NCBI GenBank assembly: GCA_032622095.1 | Contig: CP136066.1 | Location: forward strand, 108,335,319 to 108,399,318 | Source: Siphonodentalium dalli | Taxonomy: Eukaryota; Mollusca; Scaphopoda; Gadilida; Siphonodentaliidae | Direction: 5' to 3' | DNA: 64,000 bases | In this document: positions 4,897-61,956 of the stretch, piece by piece | Position numbering within the stretch: the first letter of the stretch is position 1 | How the letters are laid out: the number at the start of each line of letters is the position of its first letter | Program-made: the position numbers and the translations under genes | The notes under the pieces: model-generated | Seen by the model: the letters and a program-made list of their open reading frames with translations, nothing else | Databases searched by the model: none | Told to the model about the DNA's origin: nothing

Positions 4897-5007
4897 GCAT
4901 ACAAGGTTCCAGGCTTCAGTGGCCAGATTGGGTTCATAACTTCAATGAGTGAGCATTTTTGTGGGACCTGTAACAGGTTGAGGATGACCGCTGATGGGAA
5001 CCTCAAG
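4897..5007 (+). CDS. MOCS1: MOCS1 exon: MOCS1A C-terminal Fe-S cluster region
   Basis: A phase-0 internal exon of 37 codons, from acceptor ttacag|GCA to donor AAG|gtgagt. It encodes [20 protein letters not shown] followed by [17 protein letters not shown]. This is the conserved C-terminal segment of MOCS1A/MoaA, the radical-SAM enzyme that acts on GTP in the first step of molybdenum cofactor synthesis (cPMP formation, with MoaC). The C-x2-C here, plus the Cys in the second codon of the next exon, makes the C-x2-C-x13-C motif that binds the second [4Fe-4S] cluster. The Arg of NRLR is part of the conserved substrate-binding segment. Earlier exons with the SAM-binding CxxxCxxC motif are outside the window. 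Confidence 0.93.
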
Positions 5008-9845: not shown

Positions 9846-9966
9846 GTGTGTTTGTTTGGCAACTCTGAAGTGTCCCTGAGAGATGTGATGCGTGAAAGTA
9901 CATGTGATGAGGAATTACTCGAGGTGATCGGAGCTGCTGTGAAAAGAAAAAAGAAACAGCATGCAG
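9846..9966 (+). CDS. MOCS1: MOCS1 exon: third Fe-S cysteine and basic tail of MOCS1A
   Basis: Internal exon of 121 nt, from acceptor ccttttgtag|GTG to donor GCAG|gtatat; it ends in phase 1. It encodes [15 protein letters not shown], then an acidic helix ([18 protein letters not shown]), then QHA. The Cys in codon 2 completes C-x2-C-x13-C with the previous exon, confirming the join across the 4.8-kb intron. [11 protein letters not shown] and the KRKKKQHAG end are strongly typical of metazoan MOCS1A. It joins in frame to the exon at 12394 with the split Gly codon G|GT. Confidence 0.93.
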
Positions 9967-10707: not shown

Positions 10708-10924
10708 TACAGTAATGCCCTAAGTAATCGACTCTTTAACCACAGCAGAATTATGAGTAACTTTTCAGGATTTAGTCGGAAATATGGCTTGTTGCCATTC
10801 ATCGGAAATCTGTCACTGAGAGCTTTCTGGTGAATGGCAACAAGCCATATTTCCGACTAAATCCTGAAAAGTTACCCATAATTCTGCTGTGGTTAAGGGG
10901 TCGATTATTTAGGGCATTACTGTA
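10708..10924. mobile_element. Family A palindromic TA element (A1)
   Basis: TA-flanked (10708-10709 and 10923-10924). Ends are CAGTAATGCCCTAAGTAATCG and its complement. Arms of about 100 bp pair almost perfectly (gattt.agtcggaaatatggcttgttgcc ... complement). No internal coding capacity. TA duplications and long palindromic arms are as in Tc1/mariner-type MITEs. Confidence 0.85.
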
Positions 10925-11328: not shown

Positions 11329-11525
11329 GTTACAATATGTGATGCACGGTTATGATATTTTCTTACGTCCACAATATGTGATGCACGGTTATGATATTTT
11401 CTTATGTCCACAATATGTGATGGATGGTTATGATATTTTCTTATGTCCACAATATGTGATGCATGGTTATGATATGTTCTTATGTCCACAATATGTGATG
11501 CATGGTTATTATATTTTCTTACGCC
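11329..11525 (+). repeat. 39-bp minisatellite, about 5 copies
   Basis: The unit 'acaatatgtgatgcacggtt' + 'atgatattttcttacgtcc' (39 bp) is repeated five times with few changes. Because 39 is a multiple of 3, and the unit lacks stops in one frame on each strand, it produces repetitive open frames on both strands. These are not evidence of a protein. Confidence 0.9.
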
Positions 11526-11570
11526 AATTGTTGGTTTTGTGATAGAATAAACATATACATTTATTATACC

Positions 11571-12393: not shown

Positions 12394-12445
12394 GTATGCT
12401 TAATCTCTCAAAGATGAAAAACAGACCTATGATTCTTATTGGTGG
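12394..12445 (+). CDS. MOCS1: MOCS1 junction exon: end of MOCS1A with Gly-Gly and alternative donors
   Basis: Acceptor catttcattccag|GT. With the carried G, it reads GMLNLSKMKNRPMILI and then GG-stop (GGT GGG TGA, 12441-12449). The C-terminal Gly-Gly of MOCS1A is known to be essential for its activity. Two donors overlap this end. GTGGGT at 12442 leaves one base (G) and joins in frame to 13007, giving ...MILI-DETMAAA... and an A-B fusion without Gly-Gly. The consensus-like donor GTGAGT at 12446 leaves two bases and gives GGT GGA TGA, again Gly-Gly-stop. The phases were checked base by base; which donors are used is not known from sequence. Confidence 0.9.
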
Positions 12446-12451
12446 GTGAGT
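12438..12451 (+). promoter_or_regulatory. Tandem 5' splice sites 4 nt apart overlapping the MOCS1A stop
   Basis: The sequence ATTGGTGGGTGAGT holds donor 1 (G|GTGGGT, cut after 12441) and donor 2 (GG|GTGAGT, cut after 12445), and the in-frame TGA at 12447-12449. Donor 2 is closer to the animal consensus. Choice between the two, or no splicing, decides fusion versus separate MOCS1A. Confidence 0.75.
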
Positions 12452-12469
12452 TTTTATTTTCTTATCACA

Positions 12470-12710
12470 CGTTGGCCTAGCATCACTAATTGCAACCTCT
12501 GGGGACCTCATTCTGCTTAGGCCTCCTCTCCTCGGGAAAGTATAAGAAATAACAAGATTTTTAATTTCTTTAGAATTAATAATTTTCTTTTTTAGGTTAG
12601 TTTCTCTGTATCCCCAAATTGGCAGATGATGAATATGGTGATGCTAGCCCACTGTGTGTCACTAAATTCACCATTTGGGACCAAATGTTCGGCACCATAT
12701 TTTGAGGCCT
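12470..12710. mobile_element. Family D element, truncated copy (D2)
   Basis: Contains 'ctagcatcacta', 'ctctggggacctcattctgcttaggcctc' and 'gtttctctgtatccccaaattggcaga' in family D order, but both terminal arms are lost. Lies in the MOCS1A-MOCS1B intron. Confidence 0.6.
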
Positions 12711-12743
12711 GTTCCAATTCTTTCTTTTATCAGGATGCTTACC

Positions 12744-12960
12744 TACAGTAATGCTCTAAATAATCTACTCCTTAACCACAGCAGAATTATGGGTAACTTT
12801 TCAGGATTTAGTCGGAAATATGGCTTGTTGCCATTCATCGGAAAGCTCTCACTGAGAGCTTTTCAATGAATGGCAGCAAGCCATATTTTCGACTAAATCC
12901 TGAAAAATTTCCCATAATTCTGCTGTGGTTTAGGGGTTGATTATTTAGGACATATCTGTA
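12744..12960. mobile_element. Family A palindromic TA element (A2) in the MOCS1A-B intron
   Basis: TA-flanked, with arms of about 100 bp pairing with a handful of mismatches. It ends only 46 bp before the MOCS1B exon, so a stable hairpin can form in the pre-mRNA close to the acceptor. Confidence 0.85.
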
Positions 12961-13006
12961 TTTCTGTTTATATTAATTTTTACTTTGTTCAATGCTTCAT
13001 TTGCAG

Positions 13007-13950
13007 ATGAAACTATGGCAGCCGCCTATAGAAGAAGTATAAACGATAACTATATAGTCAGTACGTATCCATTATATAATCAGACAATCAGCAAACCAGT
13101 TCAATCTATCAGCCGACATCAGAGCCGATGCTTCTCAACCTCATTGGTCCATCTTCGCCAGAATCAAAGTTCAAATGAAGGTACTCCAACAGATGGTGAC
13201 GAGAATTCAGATGCCCGGCGCAGAAAACTTAGACAGCATCTGGAAGATGATATGGTTGAACGATTTGAAAAAGAAATGATGGCGACAAATGAAGATGCAG
13301 AACACAGAATTAGTGAAATTGACCTGAATTCTGAATTGAATCGGCAACAAATGAAGTATTGGGAGAGCGATTTTCATAAGATTGGTCGCCGTGACAACAG
13401 TGGAATATTTCCTGATGAGCTTAGGAAGAATGATGAATTTATTTTTAGTAACTCGGATAATTCTTTCGAGGATCATACTAAACTCACGCACACTGATGAC
13501 AGTGGGAAGGCTTCCATGGTTGATGTCGGCAGAAAGAAAATTACTGAGAGAAAGGCAGTTGCTTCAGGAAGAGTAATTTTGGGCGAGGCAGCATTCCGGC
13601 TGCTAAAGGAGAATAAACTGAAGAAGGGAGATGTGTTGGCTGTATCGCAGTTAGCAGGAATTATGGGAGCCAAAAAAACAAGCGACTTAATTCCGCTTTG
13701 TCACAACATACCCTTGTCACATGCAGCTGTATCGTTCAAGCTCAGTGATGTTGACTACACAGTCGATATCGAAGCTTCTGTTCGCTGCTCCGGTAAGACA
13801 GGTGTCGAGATGGAAGCACTGAGTGCAGTGAGCATTGCCTCGTTAACAATTTACGATATGTGCAAGGCTGTTAGCAAGGACATTGTCATCAGTGATATAA
13901 AACTCAGGTATAAGACTGGCGGCAAAAGCAAGGATTATCAAAAAAAATAA
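13007..13950 (+). CDS. MOCS1: MOCS1 terminal coding exon: MOCS1B (MoaC, cyclic pyranopterin monophosphate synthase)
   Basis: Acceptor catttgcag|AT. The frame runs to TAA at 13948. From the first ATG (13015) it is 311 residues. Residues 1-45 are basic and almost free of acids, with RCFSTS at 38-43, like a mitochondrial presequence. Residues 50-165 are a charged, low-conservation linker. From about residue 165 comes the MoaC domain: MVDVGRKK, then 214-230 AGIMGAKKTSDLIPLCH, 260-268 GKTGVEMEA, then YDMCK with D281 and K284 spaced as the essential Asp/Lys pair of bacterial MoaC, and the C-terminal YKTGGKS. MoaC converts the MOCS1A product into cPMP. With donor 12442 this exon fuses to MOCS1A; otherwise it is a second cistron. 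The exon is about 950 nt long with no internal intron. Confidence 0.95.
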
Positions 13951-14020
13951 TTTTACATTCCAACTTTGTTTTAGAATTGTTATTATATTTGATATTGGAA
14001 TATTTAATGTAAAGTGTGAT

Positions 14021-14446
14021 CAATCCTTGAAATAGTGTACCTGTCATTTGCAGAATGAGGTCCCCAGAGGGTGAATTTAGTGACACTCCTGCACTATGGG
14101 CTAGCATCACTAAATTCACCCTCTGGGGACCTCAGTCTGCTTGAGTCTCATTTTCTGGAAAGGATCTATAGTCTCAAATTAACATTGTTTTTAGTTACCC
14201 TTTCCCTTCTGTTCAATTTCTATATCCCCAAATTTGCAGAAGATAAAATGCATAATTGAGGTGATTAATAGGTGAACATCACCAACTTCAACTGGGGAAC
14301 TTCAATCTGATCCTAGTTCTCCCATAGCAGAATGAGCTCCCCAGAGGGTGACTTTGGTGATGCTAGCCAGCCATGCGGGGGTACCGTCACTAAATTCACC
14401 CTCTGGGGACCTCATTCCGCAAATGACAGACACACTCAAGTCTTTC
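14021..14446. mobile_element. Family D element (D3)
   Basis: Starts just after the MOCS1 stop. Both arm pairs are present (tttgcagaatgaggtccccagagggtgaattta and complements at about 14080-14140 and 14330-14425), with 'tatccccaaatttgcagaagataaaatgcataattgaggtg' in the middle. The ends are CAATCC... and ...CAAGTCTTTC, more diverged than in D8/D9. Confidence 0.75.
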
Positions 14447-14892
14447 AAATTCCCAGCCTAAACTAATTGTCTCTGTGAAGAAATTTAAAACCAGATCTCC
14501 CTTAAAGGCCCATTTAATTTTTGAGTCACTGATTATTTTGTTTATAGTGCCTTGATATACGGTTTTAATAACAATTTATGACATAAAATATGATTAAAAT
14601 ACTATAATTCATCACCATTTGGAACGTCTGTGTCTCAGAAGGTGTCCATAGAGTAATAGTAAATTGCTGAAATCATAGAAACATTTCCCCCGTTTCGCTC
14701 CCAGAATACAAATTCAAACTAAGATATAGTTATTCCCCTTCCATTGAAAATAATAGACTTCAGGACAGTCAAGCACAGAAAACATGTCGGTACCTCAACA
14801 AAAACAACATGTTCACACCGGATAAGTTGACGTGGTACATAATATGGCATATATTTTATATAATGTGACCTATGATTCAATCCTATTTTTAT
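14447..14892. other. No gene seen
   Basis: AT-rich sequence. The segment 14740-14850 resembles 30165-30330 ('ttccattgaaaataatagact', 'aacatgttcacac', 'ccggataagttga'), so it is part of another dispersed repeat. Confidence 0.45.
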
Positions 14893-15460
14893 GTTTACCC
14901 ATACCATAGTATGGTAAACATAGTGTCGTTGCCCGGATTGACCACTCGTCGTTAGTCCGTCCGTCCGTCCGTCTGTCTGTCTGTCTGTCTGTAGACACTT
15001 TACGCATGGTACGATAACTGAAATATTTTCTATCTGATCGGAACCAAATTTTGTATATGAATTTCTCAGCACCAAATACAGATCGAGTTCGAATATGGGT
15101 TTGATCCGAGTTTTTTTTACGGAGTTATGGCCCTTTTTCAACTTAGAATTTATGCATGCTGCCATAAGTCAAAAAGAAATTATCTGACCATAACCAAATT
15201 TGGTATGTGAGTTGCTCAACCCAAAATACATATCGAGTTCGAATATGGGTTTGATTCAATATTTTTTAATGGAGTTATGGCCCTTTGACATAGAATTCAT
15301 GAATGCTTCGATAAATCAAAAAAATTTCAACTGATAGGAACCAAATTTTGTATGTGAGTTTCTCAACTCAAAATACAGATCGAGTTCGAATATGGGTTTG
15401 ATCCGGTACTTTTTAATGGAGTTATGGCCCTTTGATTATTTTATTCATCGCTAAAATATA
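14893..15460 (+). mobile_element. P7-type array element with CCATACCATAGTATGG hairpin end
   Basis: Begins 'tttacccataccatagtatggtaaaca', a near-perfect palindrome, then 'cggattgaccactcgtc' and GTCCGTCCGTCCGTC. Three units of about 170 bp follow with 'ggaaccaaattttgtatatgaatttctcagc', 'cagatcgagttcgaatatgggtttgatccg' and 'ggagttatggccctttt'. Same family as 16085-17010 and, reversed, 60828-61365. Confidence 0.65.
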
Positions 15461-25239: not shown

Positions 25240-25818
25240 TTAAGCCTTTCCTTACTAAATACTCATTGATAAGTAGTTCCCTTAGGAAATGTTTAGATAA
25301 TCAAGTTCGGCCATAGGTCATTTGTTCAACTTGTTATCTGGACATTTCCCCCATCAATGATTAGGAATCCTTCTGCAGTTTTATGCTGTATACAGTAATG
25401 CCCTAAATAATCGACTCCTTAACCACAGCAGAATTATTTTTCAGGATTTGGTCGGAAATATGGCTTGTTGCCATTAAAAAAATGTCTGAGAGCTTTCCGA
25501 TGAATGGCAACAAGCCATATTTCCGACTAAATCCTGAAAAATTACCCATAATTCTGCTGTGGTTAAGGAGTCAATTATTTAGGGCATTACTGTATACAGC
25601 ATAAAACTGTAGAAGGATTCCTAATCATTGATGGGGGAAATGTCCAGATAACAAGTTGAACAAATGGCCTATGGCCGAACTTGATTATCTAAACATTTAG
25701 GGCATTACTGTAGTTCCCTTAGGAAATGTTCAGATAATCAAGTTCGGCCATAGGCCATTTGTTCAACTTGTTATCTGTACATTTCCCCCCATCAATGATT
25801 AAGAATCCTTCTGCAGTG
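25240..25818. mobile_element. Family C copies forming a large fold-back around a family A element
   Basis: A TTAA start at 25240 begins a family C copy that runs to 'ctgcagttttatgctgta' at 25390. After the family A element the same roughly 120 bp returns in reverse complement (25595-25705), then again in direct orientation (25706-25818). The result is a palindrome of more than 400 bp centred on the family A insertion, plus a third family C half. Confidence 0.75.
25391..25594. mobile_element. Family A palindromic TA element (A4)
   Basis: TA-flanked. Arms of about 95 bp; the left arm lacks the 'atgggtaac' stretch present in the right arm. Sits exactly at the centre of the larger fold-back. Confidence 0.85.
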
Positions 25819-29387: not shown

Positions 29388-29586
29388 TACAGTAATGCGC
29401 TAATTAATCGACCCCTTAACCACAGCAGAATTATGGGTAACTTTTCAGGATTTAGTCGGAAATATGGCTTGTTGCCATTCATCGGAAAGCTCTCCATGGC
29501 AACAAGCCATATTTCCGACTAAATCCTGAAAAGTTACCCATAATTCTGCTGTGGTTAAGGGGTCAATTAATTAGGGCATTACTGTA
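29388..29586. mobile_element. Family A palindromic TA element (A5)
   Basis: TA-flanked; arms pair nearly perfectly with a loop of only a few bases ('ctctccatggc'). Confidence 0.85.
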
Positions 29587-33194: not shown

Positions 33195-33605
33195 ATTCAA
33201 GCCTGCAAATAATGTGTCATTTGCAGAATGAGGACCCCAGAGGGTGAATTTAGTGATGCTATCCCACACAGTGGGCTAGCATCACCAAATTCACCCTCTG
33301 GGGACCTCATTCTGCTTAGACCTCATCTTCTGGGATGTAACTATAGTCTCAAATTAACATTGTTTTTAGTTATTTTTCCCTTCTGTTCCGTTTCTATATC
33401 CCCTAATTTGAAGTAGAAAAAATGCATAATCGAGGTGACTAATGAGTGAACATCAACTGGGGAACTTCAATCTGATCCTAGGTCTCCCATAGAAGTTGAG
33501 GCCTAAGCAGAATGAGGTTCCCAGAAGGTGAATATGGTGATGCTATCCTGCATACTAAATTCACCCTCATTCTGCAAATGACACACACTACTTCCAGGCT
33601 TTGAC
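33195..33605. mobile_element. Family D element (D5)
   Basis: Ends CAAGCCTGCAAATAATG and ...CCAGGCTTTG. The first hairpin is complete (33225-33315); the second is shortened. Confidence 0.75.
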
Positions 33606-35524
33606 TGTTTTAAATAAAACAAAGGTAGGTCGTGGTTGAGTTGGACTCAGACAATGGTTTTAGCTTGACCTATATAAAAATTGATGTCATGAGGTCAATA
33701 TCATTGACAATATGGCCAATATGTAGTGCAAAATATAATAGAGCAGAAAGGGTCTAGTTACTACGAATCGGGTGGCTGGTCCGATTGGAGCAAAGACTAG
33801 TATAATGCACAAAATTCGGCATCAACTAAGTTTCTACTTCATGTATGTAAAAGTATATTTTAATATTTGCGTGCTCTCAATGTCTTTTGCTTAGACTACA
33901 TGAAATCAGAAATGTAGTAACCTAACCCCTCGAGCTATAATGGAGACTAGTGTAAAAAAAAAACTGTAACAGGTGACAGACTGACAATCTTTAAAAGGTT
34001 GAAAGTCGTTCTTTCCAACATCAAATGACTGGACTGAAGTATGTTGCTCCATTTTCATAAAAATATAAAATTATAATTGGTATTTAAATGACAACTTATG
34101 CCAACAATATAACAGTAAATTTAGTAATATTCCCATTTCATATGGTTATTAAAGAATATGTTCTCAAACAAAATAAATGGACAGAAAGGTGACCTACCAG
34201 TAGTTTCTAAGAAAATTCACTTAATAATAATGTGATATATCTGCACAATTAACTGCTCAACAGCATTTCTGCTATGCAAAATATGTCAAGAGAACATTCT
34301 GTATATAAAATTAATCACATTATGTTATTTTCAAATAGTAAACTTCTCTTCGATAACAATATATATGTTTCAATGGTTTTGGAAATTGTAATATCGAGTT
34401 CTAGTAACTGACTTATTTTAATATGTAATATCCTGTTAATGAGAATTTGCAGAAGATCAAAATGCAAAATGTTTGGGTATGGTATTAAAAGTTATCTGGA
34501 CATGAATTTGAATTCTAAAATCTTCTACAAATAGAGTTATCACTCCTGCAATAGGTCTGTGTACCGGAGATCACTCTCAGGTGCCTAATTATAAGTGTGA
34601 GCGTGATTATTACTTTTGGAGAAAATTCCCAATGATCACTATTATTTTGCATTGAGACATAAGTGTGAAATTGTCATCGCTATTATTATTTACAGCCTAA
34701 ATTATTAATTTCAGACTAATTGCTCACCCATCACTATTTTTAATTTCAGACTAATTCCTCACCCATCACTATAATAGGCACCTAAGAGTACCGGTAGTTT
34801 TTAATCATTGCAAGACTTTGGCTGTACATAAAAAAGTTGAAAGCTGGCATTAATTAAAAACTACACATATCTTGTATCATGATATATTTATAACACTACA
34901 ATTGAATATTATATATCACTATAACAATACAATTTAATATTATATATCACTATCACAAATAGCTTGATTATGATTGGTATATTGAAACCAATTCATCTTT
35001 TCAACCTTGCAACCCCATAATTATAACAGAAATAGAGGATATGATATTTATGAAACGAGTCTAAGAATTTTCAGTTTTCTCGAGCCTCCGGCGAAGATAT
35101 AGTGCGCTATTCTGTTCTCAGTTTGTGACATTATATCGTATGTTTATTAGATAAATACGAATTACATATTCTATTTATCGTATAACAATGTCCAAAACTA
35201 TATATTTCAAGATTATAATTGCGAGAATTTCGGCATCGCGTTGATTGACGCGCACGAATTTGACCTGCATTTAGTTAGAGACACGGCTCGAACTCGGCTG
35301 CCAATCAGAACACACTTTTTGTCAACAAACCAATCAAATTATCGGAAGGTGATATGAACTAGTAGTTCATATGAAATTGATTTATGACATACTTTCCAAA
35401 GTAAATAATGATTGAGTCATATGATAAAATAATATATGAGTCAGCTGTATGACCGTTAACATTTAAATATCGATGAAACTGAAGGTGGAATATTCAAGAT
35501 GGTTAAAGATACATAATCCAATTT
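33606..35524. other. No gene seen; two short tandem duplications
   Basis: AT-rich sequence. At 34698-34772 'atttcagactaattgctcac' + 'ccatcactat' occurs twice. At 34904-34966 'ataacaatacaatttaatat' + 'tatatatcactat' occurs twice. A 34745-34790 stretch pairs with 34555-34600 ('aggtgcctaattataagtg'). No exon recognised. Confidence 0.4.
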
Positions 35525-35690
35525 AACGCCCCAAAATTACTATTTCTTTGGGTTCTGGGATAAACAATATTAGATTTGAGCCAAGGAACCCACCCATCAA
35601 AGCCCAGAGTTATCAGGTTTTGAGTTTTGAAATCTGTTATTTTCACCACCTTGAATATTTGGCAGTCTGGCAAATATTCAACGAATGCCG
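35525..35690. repeat. Dispersed non-coding repeat (R2)
   Basis: Matches 28615-28720 over about 100 bp. The 158- and 131-codon frames on opposite strands across this repeat and the next element have no domain features and are not called as genes. Confidence 0.5.
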
Positions 35691-35926
35691 ACCGACATAC
35701 TCTCGATACCAAATCATTAATTTTCGGCAAATTTAACTCGATTCTGATAACTGAAGTGGCATTCCAAGAAATATTGTTGTTGAAATCTGATGATATGGGG
35801 ACGATCGAATTGTGTACCTTTAATCTATTCGCTGCAACAATTCCAACAACAAATAATTCTATGAAACTCAATTGTAGAATACACAGGAGAAATGCATGCA
35901 TTGCACATATTTCACATACAAGTGTT

Positions 35927-36214
35927 TTAACCTTTTCTATATTAAATGGATTCTCCCATCCAGTTATAAATGTACACATCGGAACATTCTACTGTCCATT
36001 TGGAGGGGTGTTCAGGCAATAAATGCAGACAACAGACATAAAAACAGATAATACAAGATCAGAATGTTTCATATTCATAGGTGGGAAATGTTCAGATAAT
36101 AAGTTCAACAATCGACCTATGGTACCTATGGCCGTTTGATGAACTTATTATCTGAATATTTCCGAACGGAACTACTTGCCATTGAGTATTTAGTATAGAA
36201 ACTGAAAGGGTTAA
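35927..36214. mobile_element. Family C TTAA-flanked element (C3)
   Basis: TTAA at 35927-35930 and 36211-36214. In reverse orientation to C1: 'tggattctcccatccagttataaatgta' at the left and 'gttcagataataagttcaaca' at the right. Confidence 0.8.
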
Positions 36215-38033: not shown

Positions 38034-38250
38034 TACAGTAATGCACTAAGTAATCGACCCCTTAACCACAGCAGAATTATGGGTAACTTTTCAGGATTTA
38101 GTCGGAAATATGGCTTGTCGCCATTCATTGGAAAGCTCTCGGAGAGAGCTTTCCGATGAATGGCAACAAGCCATATTTCCGACTAAATCCTGAAAAGTTA
38201 CCCATAATTCTGCTGTGGTTAAGGGGTCGATTACTTAGGGCATTACTGTA
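38034..38250. mobile_element. Family A palindromic TA element (A7)
   Basis: TA-flanked, arms of about 105 bp, nearly perfect palindrome with 'ctctcggagagag' centre. Confidence 0.88.
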
Positions 38251-39259: not shown

Positions 39260-41285
39260 TTAGAGAGACAATTTCCTCTGCCTTTCACCATCGCGGAAGT
39301 TTTTGTCGAACCTCTGATACATTTCACCTGAAATCTCACCCGTAAGAAGCTTTTGTAATAGCGGACGTTTATCACTATCATCAACAGTTTTCTGGACAGG
39401 ACTAGAGTTTTCCTTTCTTGAAGAATAAAGATCCAAAGGATAACGTGAGTCCACATATCCTCGAAGAACCTTTTCTAATTCTGACATGTTTTTACCACCA
39501 GAATTTTTCGAACATTTCAGACTAGTTTGTGCCGGTTTCATAGCTTTCTGTTTTTTCTGATCCTCTGCCTGAGCATTCAACAGAATCATTCTAAGTTTAC
39601 TCTCGAAAAAATCGGTGCTAGATGAAACTGTCGGTGAAGTTGGCATAGAAACCGATGATGACTTAGATTTATTTGGTTGAGCTTGAACATCATCACTATT
39701 CTTTAGAGGAACACTAGTATTAGATTCGCATAATACAGTTGATGAGTCAGGCAGAATAGCGTCATCTTCCAATGAGTAATCATTACTCAGAAGACAATTA
39801 TCACTATCGTTAGACGACCAATTTTGTTGAGTCATTCCTGAAATGAGCGAACAAACCTGCTCATCTCCGAGATTATCACAATATTGAAGTGCAAAATCCA
39901 AAAAGTCCTCCGACGATGACTGGTGGTCCAATGTCGCTGAATTTTCTGCCTCCTGATATGGCATTGTGGGAAAAGCATGACCTGATGAAACTGTACCCGA
40001 AGAACCTGAGCATGATTTGTGAATAGGTTTGGAAATGACATCTGTTTTTTCGGCGAAATGTGTTTCGAGATTGCCTTTCCACATCGGATCAGTTTCTGAT
40101 AGCAGATGTTCAAGATCACTGAAAGTACTACTATCTGGTACAACTTTCGTCGTCATAGAAGACTTTGTCGCTCTTGATTTCTCAATTTTCTTGCTCAACT
40201 GTTCCAGAATGTTTGTACGCAAGAAAGACGGCAGCATTTGAGACTCGCTATCCACCTTATCACTTAGAAGGGAGCGCAGTAATGTTCTTTGACGTTTTTT
40301 ATGTAGATCAAAATCTCCAGTTTCACAATGCTTCCGTTTTGTTGAATCGGGTTCAGTTTTAAAAATATGACTTCTTTGATTCACTTGTTTGCGATCTTTT
40401 TCGCAGTTTGGAGTCACTATGGTATCTGTGTTACAACAATGAGCACTGTTAGCAGAATTATTATTATTGTTGTTGTTTACTAACTCATTAAAATCACAGT
40501 AACTTGGCAGCTGGCCATTAAACATGGAACTATTCAGACATTGTGAGCCAGGAGAGATTGAGGAATTATTAACATTCACAGTTGATGTTTGGTTGTAAGC
40601 GTTTTGGTTGAAAGTTGAAGGGTCTGGAATGTATAATGGTTGATCATCTCGCTTTCTTGTGTCATTATCCAGATTTTTCAAAAAATCATAGAGAAAATCC
40701 AAGTTATTCAGATCAGTAAAATCAGGTTGCTCTATCGAACTTGAAAACATTTCCAGATCTGAATTATTGAATGATGATGAATCTAGAGGTAAATTATCAT
40801 TGAAAGTATTAAGTGAAGGACACGTGTTGTGCAGCATGGAATCGGGACTAGTTTCGTTCTTAATGCATGTCAGAATGTTAGACACACCATCCGAGTCAAT
40901 AATCATGGGATCACATTGGCTTTCACAAATTCTTGACACGTCGCTAACGACTTCACTAGGCTGGTTACTAATGAAGTCTGGCTGTTCGTGAGAATCATAA
41001 TATTCATGCTCCATCGTAGAGATGTCTGAAGGGCTGCCCCTTGGTGAGTAGTTCGAATTAGCACCATTGCTGCTACCTAGAGGGCTGCCGGACATAGAGT
41101 TTCCACTGTGGTAACCGCTGCTTAGTCCATCTGTGTCTGCTTCCTCGGACATATCTGATGTGCTACTAGCACCGCCAGGTGATGAGCCAGCATAATCATT
41201 AAAATCCATGCTCCCAGTCATGGTGGTTACCACAGGACCTTGCATCGTTGATTGATTGCCTTGGACTTCGTGACTATTGTCCTCA
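39260..41285 (-). CDS. Last coding exon of an LxxLL-motif protein, possible nuclear-receptor coregulator
   Basis: Open for 661 codons from ATG 41245 to TAA 39260. The frame extends 13 codons upstream to a good acceptor (ttctttccag|T at 41285, phase 2), so the protein probably starts in an upstream exon. Residue numbers are from ATG 41245. Ser/Gly-rich N-terminus (TDGLSSGYHSGNSMSGSP, about 38-55); acidic/hydrophobic segment about 175-192 (DLNNLDFLYDFLKNL); Asn run about 257-265; basic KKRQR at 316-320, a possible nuclear signal. LxxLL motifs are LRSLL (323-327), LEHLL (378-382) and LQKLL (630-634). Largely disordered composition. LxxLL boxes contact nuclear-receptor ligand-binding domains; three of them plus a basic stretch suggest a transcription coregulator. 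I do not recognise the ortholog. Base composition and sustained frame contrast sharply with the flanks, so the gene is real. Confidence 0.85.
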
Positions 41286-41754
41286 CTGGAAAGAATGAAG
41301 AAAAATTAATTTAACAAAATTATAACATTATAATGAGAGGCCGATCACGATCATCTGATGGTTAAACCATACGACTACAACAATCGAAACCATCCAGCGA
41401 GCGTACTAATTACCTCCACTCAAAGACCAATATTTCAGCGTTATACAGTCAGCTCCAAGCCTGCGATGTTTATATAATAGAGAATTTGTTATATTTTAAA
41501 TATTTTGAGGTGTTGACAGATACATTGGTTCAGCTAGTAAAGCTACCCCAATAACATAGTCTGGTTTTCAAACAATTCGCATCATTAAAAATTATATGCA
41601 GGAGGGGAAAAAAATAATGAAAGTGTCCATTTAGTATAGAAAGGTTTAACACACGAGTGGTCCAAAGCATGCAGTCACCATCACAGTGTGAACGACATCA
41701 TAACCTCGTCACAGTGAAACTCAGCATTCTGCCAGCGAGTGTCGATCTCATAAC
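41286..41754. other. Intron or flank of the minus-strand gene, no further exon seen
   Basis: No upstream exon of the 39260-41285 gene recognised. Contains 'ggccgatcacgatcatctgatggttaaaccata' near 41340, similar to the right end of the P7 element, and a family C edge near 41628-41650. Confidence 0.4.
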
Positions 41755-43265: not shown

Positions 43266-43519
43266 CAAGCCTTGAAATAGGGTGTCTGTCATTTGCAGAA
43301 TGAGGTTCCCAGAGGGTGAATTTAGTGATGCTACCCCGCAGAGTGGGCTAGCATCACCAAATTCACCCTCTGGGGACCTCATTCTGCTTACACCTCAGCA
43401 GAATGAGGTTCCCAGAGGGTGAATTTGGTGATGCTAGCCCGCTATGCGGGGTAGCATCACTAAATTCACCCTCTGGGGACCTCATTCTGCAAATGACAGA
43501 CACCCTATTTCAAGGCTTG
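43266..43519. mobile_element. Family D element, compact copy with perfect 8-bp duplication (D8)
   Basis: GCCAGGGC occurs at 43258-43265 and 43520-43527, with ends CAAGCCTTG ... CAAGGCTTG. The left hairpin and right hairpin are themselves reverse complements, so the whole 254 bp folds three ways (two local hairpins or one long hairpin). It lacks the middle roughly 180 bp of full copies. Confidence 0.9.
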
Positions 43520-49140: not shown

Positions 49141-49488
49141 TATAATACATATGGCCATATGTACATACTATGGGTCAATACTATAGAACATTTTACACTT
49201 GTAAAATAATTTTATTTAAATTTTTATTAATGATACTGAAGGGTGAGAATATCAAGAGCTGAGCTCAGTGTTGGGCTGGTATATAACCCTGTGTGGTACA
49301 CAACAGAATGCCAGTAGGTGTGCATAAGTATACCCTATGGTTGTGTTACAGATGATCAATGAGAGATAACTCTAGAATGTAAATAACAGACAACAGAATT
49401 TAAACCTCTTTTGAAAGTCATTCTGATAGCAAAGCCACATACCCAATTTCAATGAGCTCTGATAACACATAGCTCAGATACAGTAATG
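49141..49488. other. No gene seen
   Basis: No recognised signal. Confidence 0.35.
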
Positions 49489-49690
49489 CCCTAAGTAATC
49501 GACCCCTTAACCACAGCAGAATTATGGGTAACTTTTCAGGATTTTGTCGGAAATATGGATTGTTGCCATTCAGGATTTAGTCGGAAATATGGCTTGTGGC
49601 AACAAGCCATATTTCCGACTAAATCCTGAAAAGTTACCCATAATTCTGCTGTGGTTATTAAAGTGGTCGATTACTTAGAGAATTACTGTA
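49489..49690. mobile_element. Family A palindromic TA element (A9)
   Basis: TA-flanked. The left arm has an internal repeat ('gccattcaggatttagtcggaaatatgg' twice), so the arms are unequal. Confidence 0.8.
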
Positions 49691-61739: not shown

Positions 61740-61956
61740 TACAGTAATGCCCTAAGTAATCGACTCCTTAACCACAGCAGAATTATGGGTAACTTTTCAG
61801 GATTTAGTCAGAAATATGGCTTGTTGCCATTCATCAGAAAGCTATCACTGAGAGCTTTCTGATGAATGGCAACAAGCCATATTTCCGACTAAATCCTGAA
61901 AAGTTACCCATAATTCTGCTGTTGTCAAGGAGTCGATTATTTAGGGCATTACGGTA
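61740..61956. mobile_element. Family A palindromic TA element (A10)
   Basis: TA-flanked, arms of about 105 bp, close to a perfect palindrome with 'tatcactgagag' centre. Confidence 0.88.

Follow-up and report, generated by a model that had tools for sequence, protein, structure and literature searches.

Two splice donors four nucleotides apart as a putative switch between MOCS1A and a MOCS1AB fusion in the scaphopod Siphonodentalium dalli

The MOCS1 locus

The stretch of DNA analysed here (the window, 64,000 nt, whose numbering is used throughout) is C6:108335319-108399318 of the 2.23-Gb genome of Siphonodentalium dalli, which comprises nine contigs, and it carries on its plus strand a gene that is, by its predicted protein content, MOCS1. 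The earlier MOCS1A exons were found in 50 kb added upstream of the window. Eight predicted exons, from window coordinate -19064 to 12445, were assembled into a protein of 352 residues, which is without its first exon(s) and N-terminus and whose exon borders are those drawn in this analysis. This protein matches TIGR02666 (GTP 3',8-cyclase MoaA) with 390.2 bits against a cut-off of 284.05, over model positions 1-336 of 336 and residues 26-352, with the end of the model falling on the final glycine; by this match it is a MoaA-type radical SAM enzyme ending in Gly-Gly. The next exon on the same strand encodes, in frame, a full-length MoaC domain (PF01967, 187.2 bits, model 1-136 of 136; TIGR00581, 186.5 bits, cut-off 141.5), as expected of MOCS1B. 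Among solved structures, 10 MoaC sequences match MOCS1B and two MoaA sequences match the end of MOCS1A, the latter only over residues 7-66 of 92, so that the Gly-Gly tail lies outside the match.

A six-frame search of the genome (2.23 Gb; best three candidates scored) gave a single MoaC match, at this locus, and a whole-genome search for MoaA (best 10 candidates scored) gave five matches, all of them at this locus. No second source of a MoaA or MoaC protein was seen among these best candidates, so that free MOCS1A and MOCS1B would both have to come from this one gene. Two scans of viral contigs gave no relative. The region of interest is probably where MOCS1A ends and MOCS1B begins within a bicistronic MOCS1 gene, putatively a single transcription unit, with the following features.

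4897..5007, plus strand: MOCS1A exon with the C-terminal FeS-cluster motif FCGTCNRLR (joined translation, TIGR02666 match, genome match G000:C6:108340218-108340325)
9846..9966, plus strand: MOCS1A exon preceding the switch exon, ending in phase 1, ...QHA G/ (joined translation)
10708..10924, plus strand: copy of a self-complementary repeat that precedes the switch exon; its complementarity to 12744-12960 is 89%, and it is probably incidental (repeat search, folding)
12394..12445, plus strand: switch exon, the last of MOCS1A, 48 nt long to donor 12442 and 52 nt to donor 12446 (joined translation)
12442..12443, plus strand: upstream donor TTG/GTGGGT, 6.91 bits, predicted to give an in-frame A-B fusion (translation, donor score)
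12446..12447, plus strand: downstream donor TGG/GTGAGT, 9.16 bits, predicted to give Gly-Gly-stop (translation, donor score)
12447..12449, plus strand: MOCS1A stop codon TGA on intron retention, inside the donor GTGAGT (sequence, translation)
12744..12960, plus strand: second copy of the 10708-10924 repeat, inside the switch intron (repeat search, folding)
13005..13006, plus strand: acceptor AG of the switch intron (sequence, acceptor context)
13007..13950, plus strand: exon with the linker and MOCS1B (MoaC) to the stop codon (joined translation, domain matches)
13008..13010, plus strand: TGA brought into frame with MOCS1A by splicing at donor 12446, GG/A TGA (joined translation)
13015..13164, plus strand: presequence-like stretch, the first 50 residues from an in-frame Met, Ser/Thr-rich with one acidic and six basic residues (composition, helical moment)
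13516..13923, plus strand: MoaC domain, PF01967 1-136/136 (profile match)

Splice outcomes at the end of MOCS1A

The initial annotation had read the end of the switch exon as ATT GGT GGG TGA, and these bases stand, base for base, at 12438-12449. The two GTs lie 4 nt apart (GTGGGT at 12442-12447) and form a tandem donor of the GYNNGY type. Joining donor 12442 to 13007 translates as ...NRPMILI-D-ETMAAAYRR... and reads through to the MOCS1B stop, a fusion lacking Gly-Gly, while joining donor 12446 to 13007 translates as ...NRPMILIGG-stop, with the TGA supplied by the acceptor exon; the first bases of that exon, ATGA, hold a stop in one frame and Asp-Glu in the other. Retention of the intron also ends in ...NRPMILIGG-stop, with the TGA at 12447-12449. 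All three outcomes had been predicted correctly, and the list was incomplete: in the joined translation, skipping the switch exon keeps MoaC in frame and so preserves the fusion, since the exon measures 48 nt as far as donor 12442. The gene identity, coordinates and phases of the earlier reading also hold, and the switch that it proposed fits a gene found at one locus that would have to supply both proteins; what it missed are exon skipping and the acceptors that restore the frame after donor 12446 (below), and the use of either donor is a prediction. As far as sequence can tell, then, the locus permits both an isoform ending in Gly-Gly-stop and an in-frame A-B fusion without Gly-Gly.

The downstream donor had been called the nearer to consensus, and its score bears this out, with 9.16 bits against 6.91 for donor 12442 (scores computed from human donor frequencies and the base composition of the window). 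Predicted U1 duplex energies of -9.9 and -7.9 kcal/mol, respectively, give the same order. Ranked against the 6841 GTs of the window, donor 12446 falls in the top 0.31% and donor 12442 in the top 2.06%, so that the weaker donor, taken singly, is not rare. The seven other predicted donors of the gene score 7.84, 10.74, 8.14, 6.20, 4.61, 12.08 and 5.86 bits; with exon borders as drawn here, both switch donors fall inside this range, donor 12442 beating three of the seven and donor 12446 five. As a pair they exceed what chance would give: on both strands of the window, only one of 474 GTNNGT sites, the switch site itself, reaches 6.9 bits or more with each of its two donors, a threshold that was set after the weaker site's 6.91 bits had been seen. 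Given a Gly-Gly-stop end, the rough chance of the whole arrangement (the two GTs, the correct frame and an immediate stop) is about 0.0014 under a model that assumes uniform Gly codons. At 12450 lies a third GT, whose score of -6.29 bits is too low for a donor. The exon at 9846 starts with a donor-like GTGTGT, and its junction rebuilds a donor of 9.1 bits.

A third acceptor that restores the frame after donor 12446 had been named as evidence against the switch. Such acceptors do exist: exon starts at 13032, 13035, 13038 and 13062 (by translation) and at 13092 (by codon position) put donor 12446 in the MOCS1B frame. They look poorer, however, and we reject them as the main route from donor 12446, because the better, more pyrimidine-rich AG at 13006 precedes them all. 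Acceptors 13022 and 13058 would yield a fusion in frame with donor 12442 (translated).

The exon that follows would open with a linker. The highest helical moment of the protein lies at residues 23-40 of the stretch that begins with Met 13015, and an acidic linker follows. An internal targeting signal has been reported upstream of human MOCS1B (PMC9607355), and the linker here fits such a signal; its composition is compatible with a putative cleavage of the fusion that would release mitochondrial MOCS1B. The exon 13007-13950 is likely the last. If so, the rebuilt stop would lie 3' of the last junction, and the mRNA that carries it should escape junction-dependent decay. The 1250 bases after the MOCS1B stop (13951-15200) hold no AATAAA; only ATTAAA at 14593 and AGTAAA at 14658 were found.

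The proposed switch and its rivals

We think it probable that the two donors 4 nt apart act as the switch between MOCS1A and the MOCS1AB fusion. Donors 12442 and 12446 would compete for one acceptor (13005-13006). The stronger, 12446, would give a bicistronic mRNA encoding MOCS1A with a free C-terminal Gly-Gly, in which the next exon would contribute its first four bases, finishing the second Gly codon and adding the stop. The weaker, 12442, would remove both Gly-Gly and stop and shift the frame by 4 nt, opening the MOCS1B frame; its product would be a MOCS1AB fusion that carries the presequence-like linker and presumably releases MOCS1B. Exon skipping could yield a similar fusion. The use of both donors, their ratio, and the processing and import of the fusion are all predictions. 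Several points count against a switch by donor choice: skipping could supply the fusion without donor 12442, the donor scores are built on human frequencies and their comparison within the gene on exon borders drawn here, and splicing at tandem donors 4 nt apart has been judged mainly noise in human and mouse (PMC4267661).

The strongest rival, which we consider unlikely, is that donor 12446 is used almost always and donor 12442 is noise, with the fusion arising when the 52-nt exon is skipped, either directly or through recursive splicing. Skipping stays in frame in the joined translation, and the splice types of human MOCS1 include exon skipping. The switch exon begins with GTATGC, so that joining it to the exon before recreates a donor, CAG/GTATGC, of 8.92 bits, close to the score of donor 12446; this rebuilt 5' splice site makes it a candidate for a recursively spliced exon. 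Skipping from rebuilt donors has been described (PMC6224609), and complementary 217-nt repeats lie on both sides of the switch exon. However, a GT donor is rebuilt at two of the eight MOCS1 exon junctions, the other with 9.1 bits, and human exons are said to start with GT more often than with any other pair of bases (PMC6224609), so the rebuilt donor at the switch exon is not special. We also reject the flanking inverted repeats as a designed exon-skipping device; they look incidental, since each folds on itself and the window holds seven near full-length copies.

A broader version of the switch by donor choice seems to us improbable: that a frame-shifting 4-nt tandem donor, elsewhere mostly noise or a trigger of decay, became a working switch between enzyme and fusion in a metabolic gene, that restart on the Gly-Gly-stop mRNA, at the ATG 4 nt past the rebuilt stop, also gives some MOCS1B, and that three ways (donor choice, skipping and restart) together set the ratio of A to B.

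We give very little weight to the reading in which splicing is essentially always from 12446 to 13007 and MOCS1B is made on its own, through reinitiation at Met 13015 or an internal promoter. Only 4 nt separate the rebuilt TGA from the start of the in-frame ATG, which is flanked by A at -3 and G at +4 and opens the presequence-like stretch, a context that may leave room for some restart. Reinitiation past a long frame is usually inefficient, which counts against this reading. Traces of MOCS1B made by reinitiation were reported in one human patient (PMC9607355; PMC9313850), but the human bicistronic mRNA is stated to yield functional protein from the first frame only (PMC9607355), and Neurospora NIT-7B alone failed to reach mitochondria (PMC7232280). 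Exclusive use of donor 12446 would also leave the in-frame upstream donor 12442 unexplained.

Equally hard to credit is donor 12442 as the working donor with Gly-Gly MOCS1A made by intron retention, for although the retained switch intron does end in Gly-Gly-stop on translation and the unspliced nit-7 mRNA of Neurospora makes NIT-7A (PMC7232280), donor 12446 scores 2.25 bits above 12442 and yields an identical protein with the 561-nt intron removed.

The competition of two donors 4 nt apart, which we prefer, would if both are used be an unusual case, in which a frame-shifting 4-nt donor choice yields two needed proteins and is not noise. Gly-Gly-stop written as GGT GGG TGA is itself donor-like (G/GTGGG, G/GTGA), so that the same letters could code both the catalytic tail and its removal, which suggests why MOCS1 genes may acquire such switches.

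Comparison with known MOCS1 genes and other features of the window

The principle, that splicing picks MOCS1A or a fusion, is already known, and only the frame-shifting 4-nt form could therefore be new. In humans, MOCS1A and the AB fusion are reported to arise by alternative splicing (PMC9607355), and in cattle the same is reported from predicted RNAs (PMC3034695); the vertebrate gene, bicistronic and giving MOCS1A or a MOCS1AB fusion by splicing in the last MOCS1A exon (PMC9607355, PMC3034695), resembles the reading proposed for ours. Drosophila would be alike as well, with a short Mocs1A and long Mocs1A-Mocs1B proteins reported from alternative splicing (PMC5817353), although another paper calls human-type Mocs1 splicing in flies unclear (PMC8790633). 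Different MOCS1 splice types are said to occur in invertebrates too, with Gray and Nicholls cited for this (PMC3034695).

At the level of the splice sites the human gene would differ from the present one. Human MOCS1A is taken here to have 385 residues, and its donors to lie 15 nt apart. With these values, published numbering (c.1150G>A, p.Glu384Lys; c.1165+6T>C; PMC9313850) would place the fusion donor of the human gene one base into the first Gly codon, like donor 12442 here, with the second donor 15 nt on (1165-1150) and the whole stop in the removed piece. Here the distance is 4 nt and the stop is rebuilt across the junction. Human donors 15 nt apart would share a frame, whereas those of S. 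dalli lie in different frames.

Neurospora crassa nit-7 parallels the outcomes predicted here in that Gly-Gly is encoded in an intron, with unspliced RNA giving NIT-7A and spliced RNA NIT-7AB, and in having two nearby donors (deletions 1460-1696 and 1469-1696; PMC7232280). Without the ability to produce the AB splice form, a Neurospora strain is reported to show no significant growth on nitrate (PMC7232280). By arithmetic on the published numbers, however, the nit-7 donors are 9 nt apart and the introns 237 and 228 nt long, both multiples of three, which puts the donors in the same frame; moreover, the MOCS1A-like protein comes from unspliced RNA, and the 1469 variant is reported as not essential (PMC7232280).

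In human tissues donors shift by four nucleotides more often than by any other distance (PMC8055015; PMC4267661), and splicing at such tandem donors is described as mainly noise, with tissue regulation of about 20% in human and 3% in mouse (PMC4267661). Other GYNNGY donors usually shift the frame and are read as noise or a decay route, whereas here both frames would give a needed protein. Provisionally, then, the 4-nt frame-shifting form with its rebuilt stop differs from the human form as we infer it and from the Neurospora form as published, and what would be new, again provisionally, is the combination of donors in different frames with a stop reassembled at the junction. Among the matches listed, titles and the starts of abstracts on MOCS1 or on tandem donors described no 4-nt MOCS1 switch; the paper of Gray and Nicholls from 2000, whose title is said to concern diverse mechanisms and which is reportedly cited for invertebrate MOCS1 splice types, may hold one. 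Passages from PMC6318936, PMC9370521 and PMC5372717 contain nothing on the splice sites.

The repeats that flank the switch exon are probably ordinary mobile repeats. They belong to a self-complementary family whose units, about 217 nt long, consist of two 108-nt arms nearly without a loop; it looks like a foldback mobile element and is present in the window as seven near full-length copies (10708-10924, 12744-12960, 25391-25594, 29388-29586, 38034-38250, 49479-49690 and 61740-61956) and some partial ones. Folded alone, the copies at 10708-10924 and 12744-12960 reach -176 and -150 kcal/mol; as a pair they reach -333 kcal/mol. A second family of short foldback repeats is represented by a copy at 12466-12658, which starts about 20 nt past the tandem donor, inside the switch intron, and has relatives near 1652 and at 14050-14420, 33223-33545 and 43295-43490. 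The intron preceding the switch exon also carries, at 11332-11526, a tandem array of about five copies of a 39-nt unit.

Elsewhere in the window, the open frames at 39260-41305 and 35503-35988 (both minus strand) match no Pfam family at E 0.01. The former encodes 681 residues, is rich in Ser and Asn, and has a leucine motif of the LLQKLL type; by resemblance, it is possibly a nuclear receptor coregulator.
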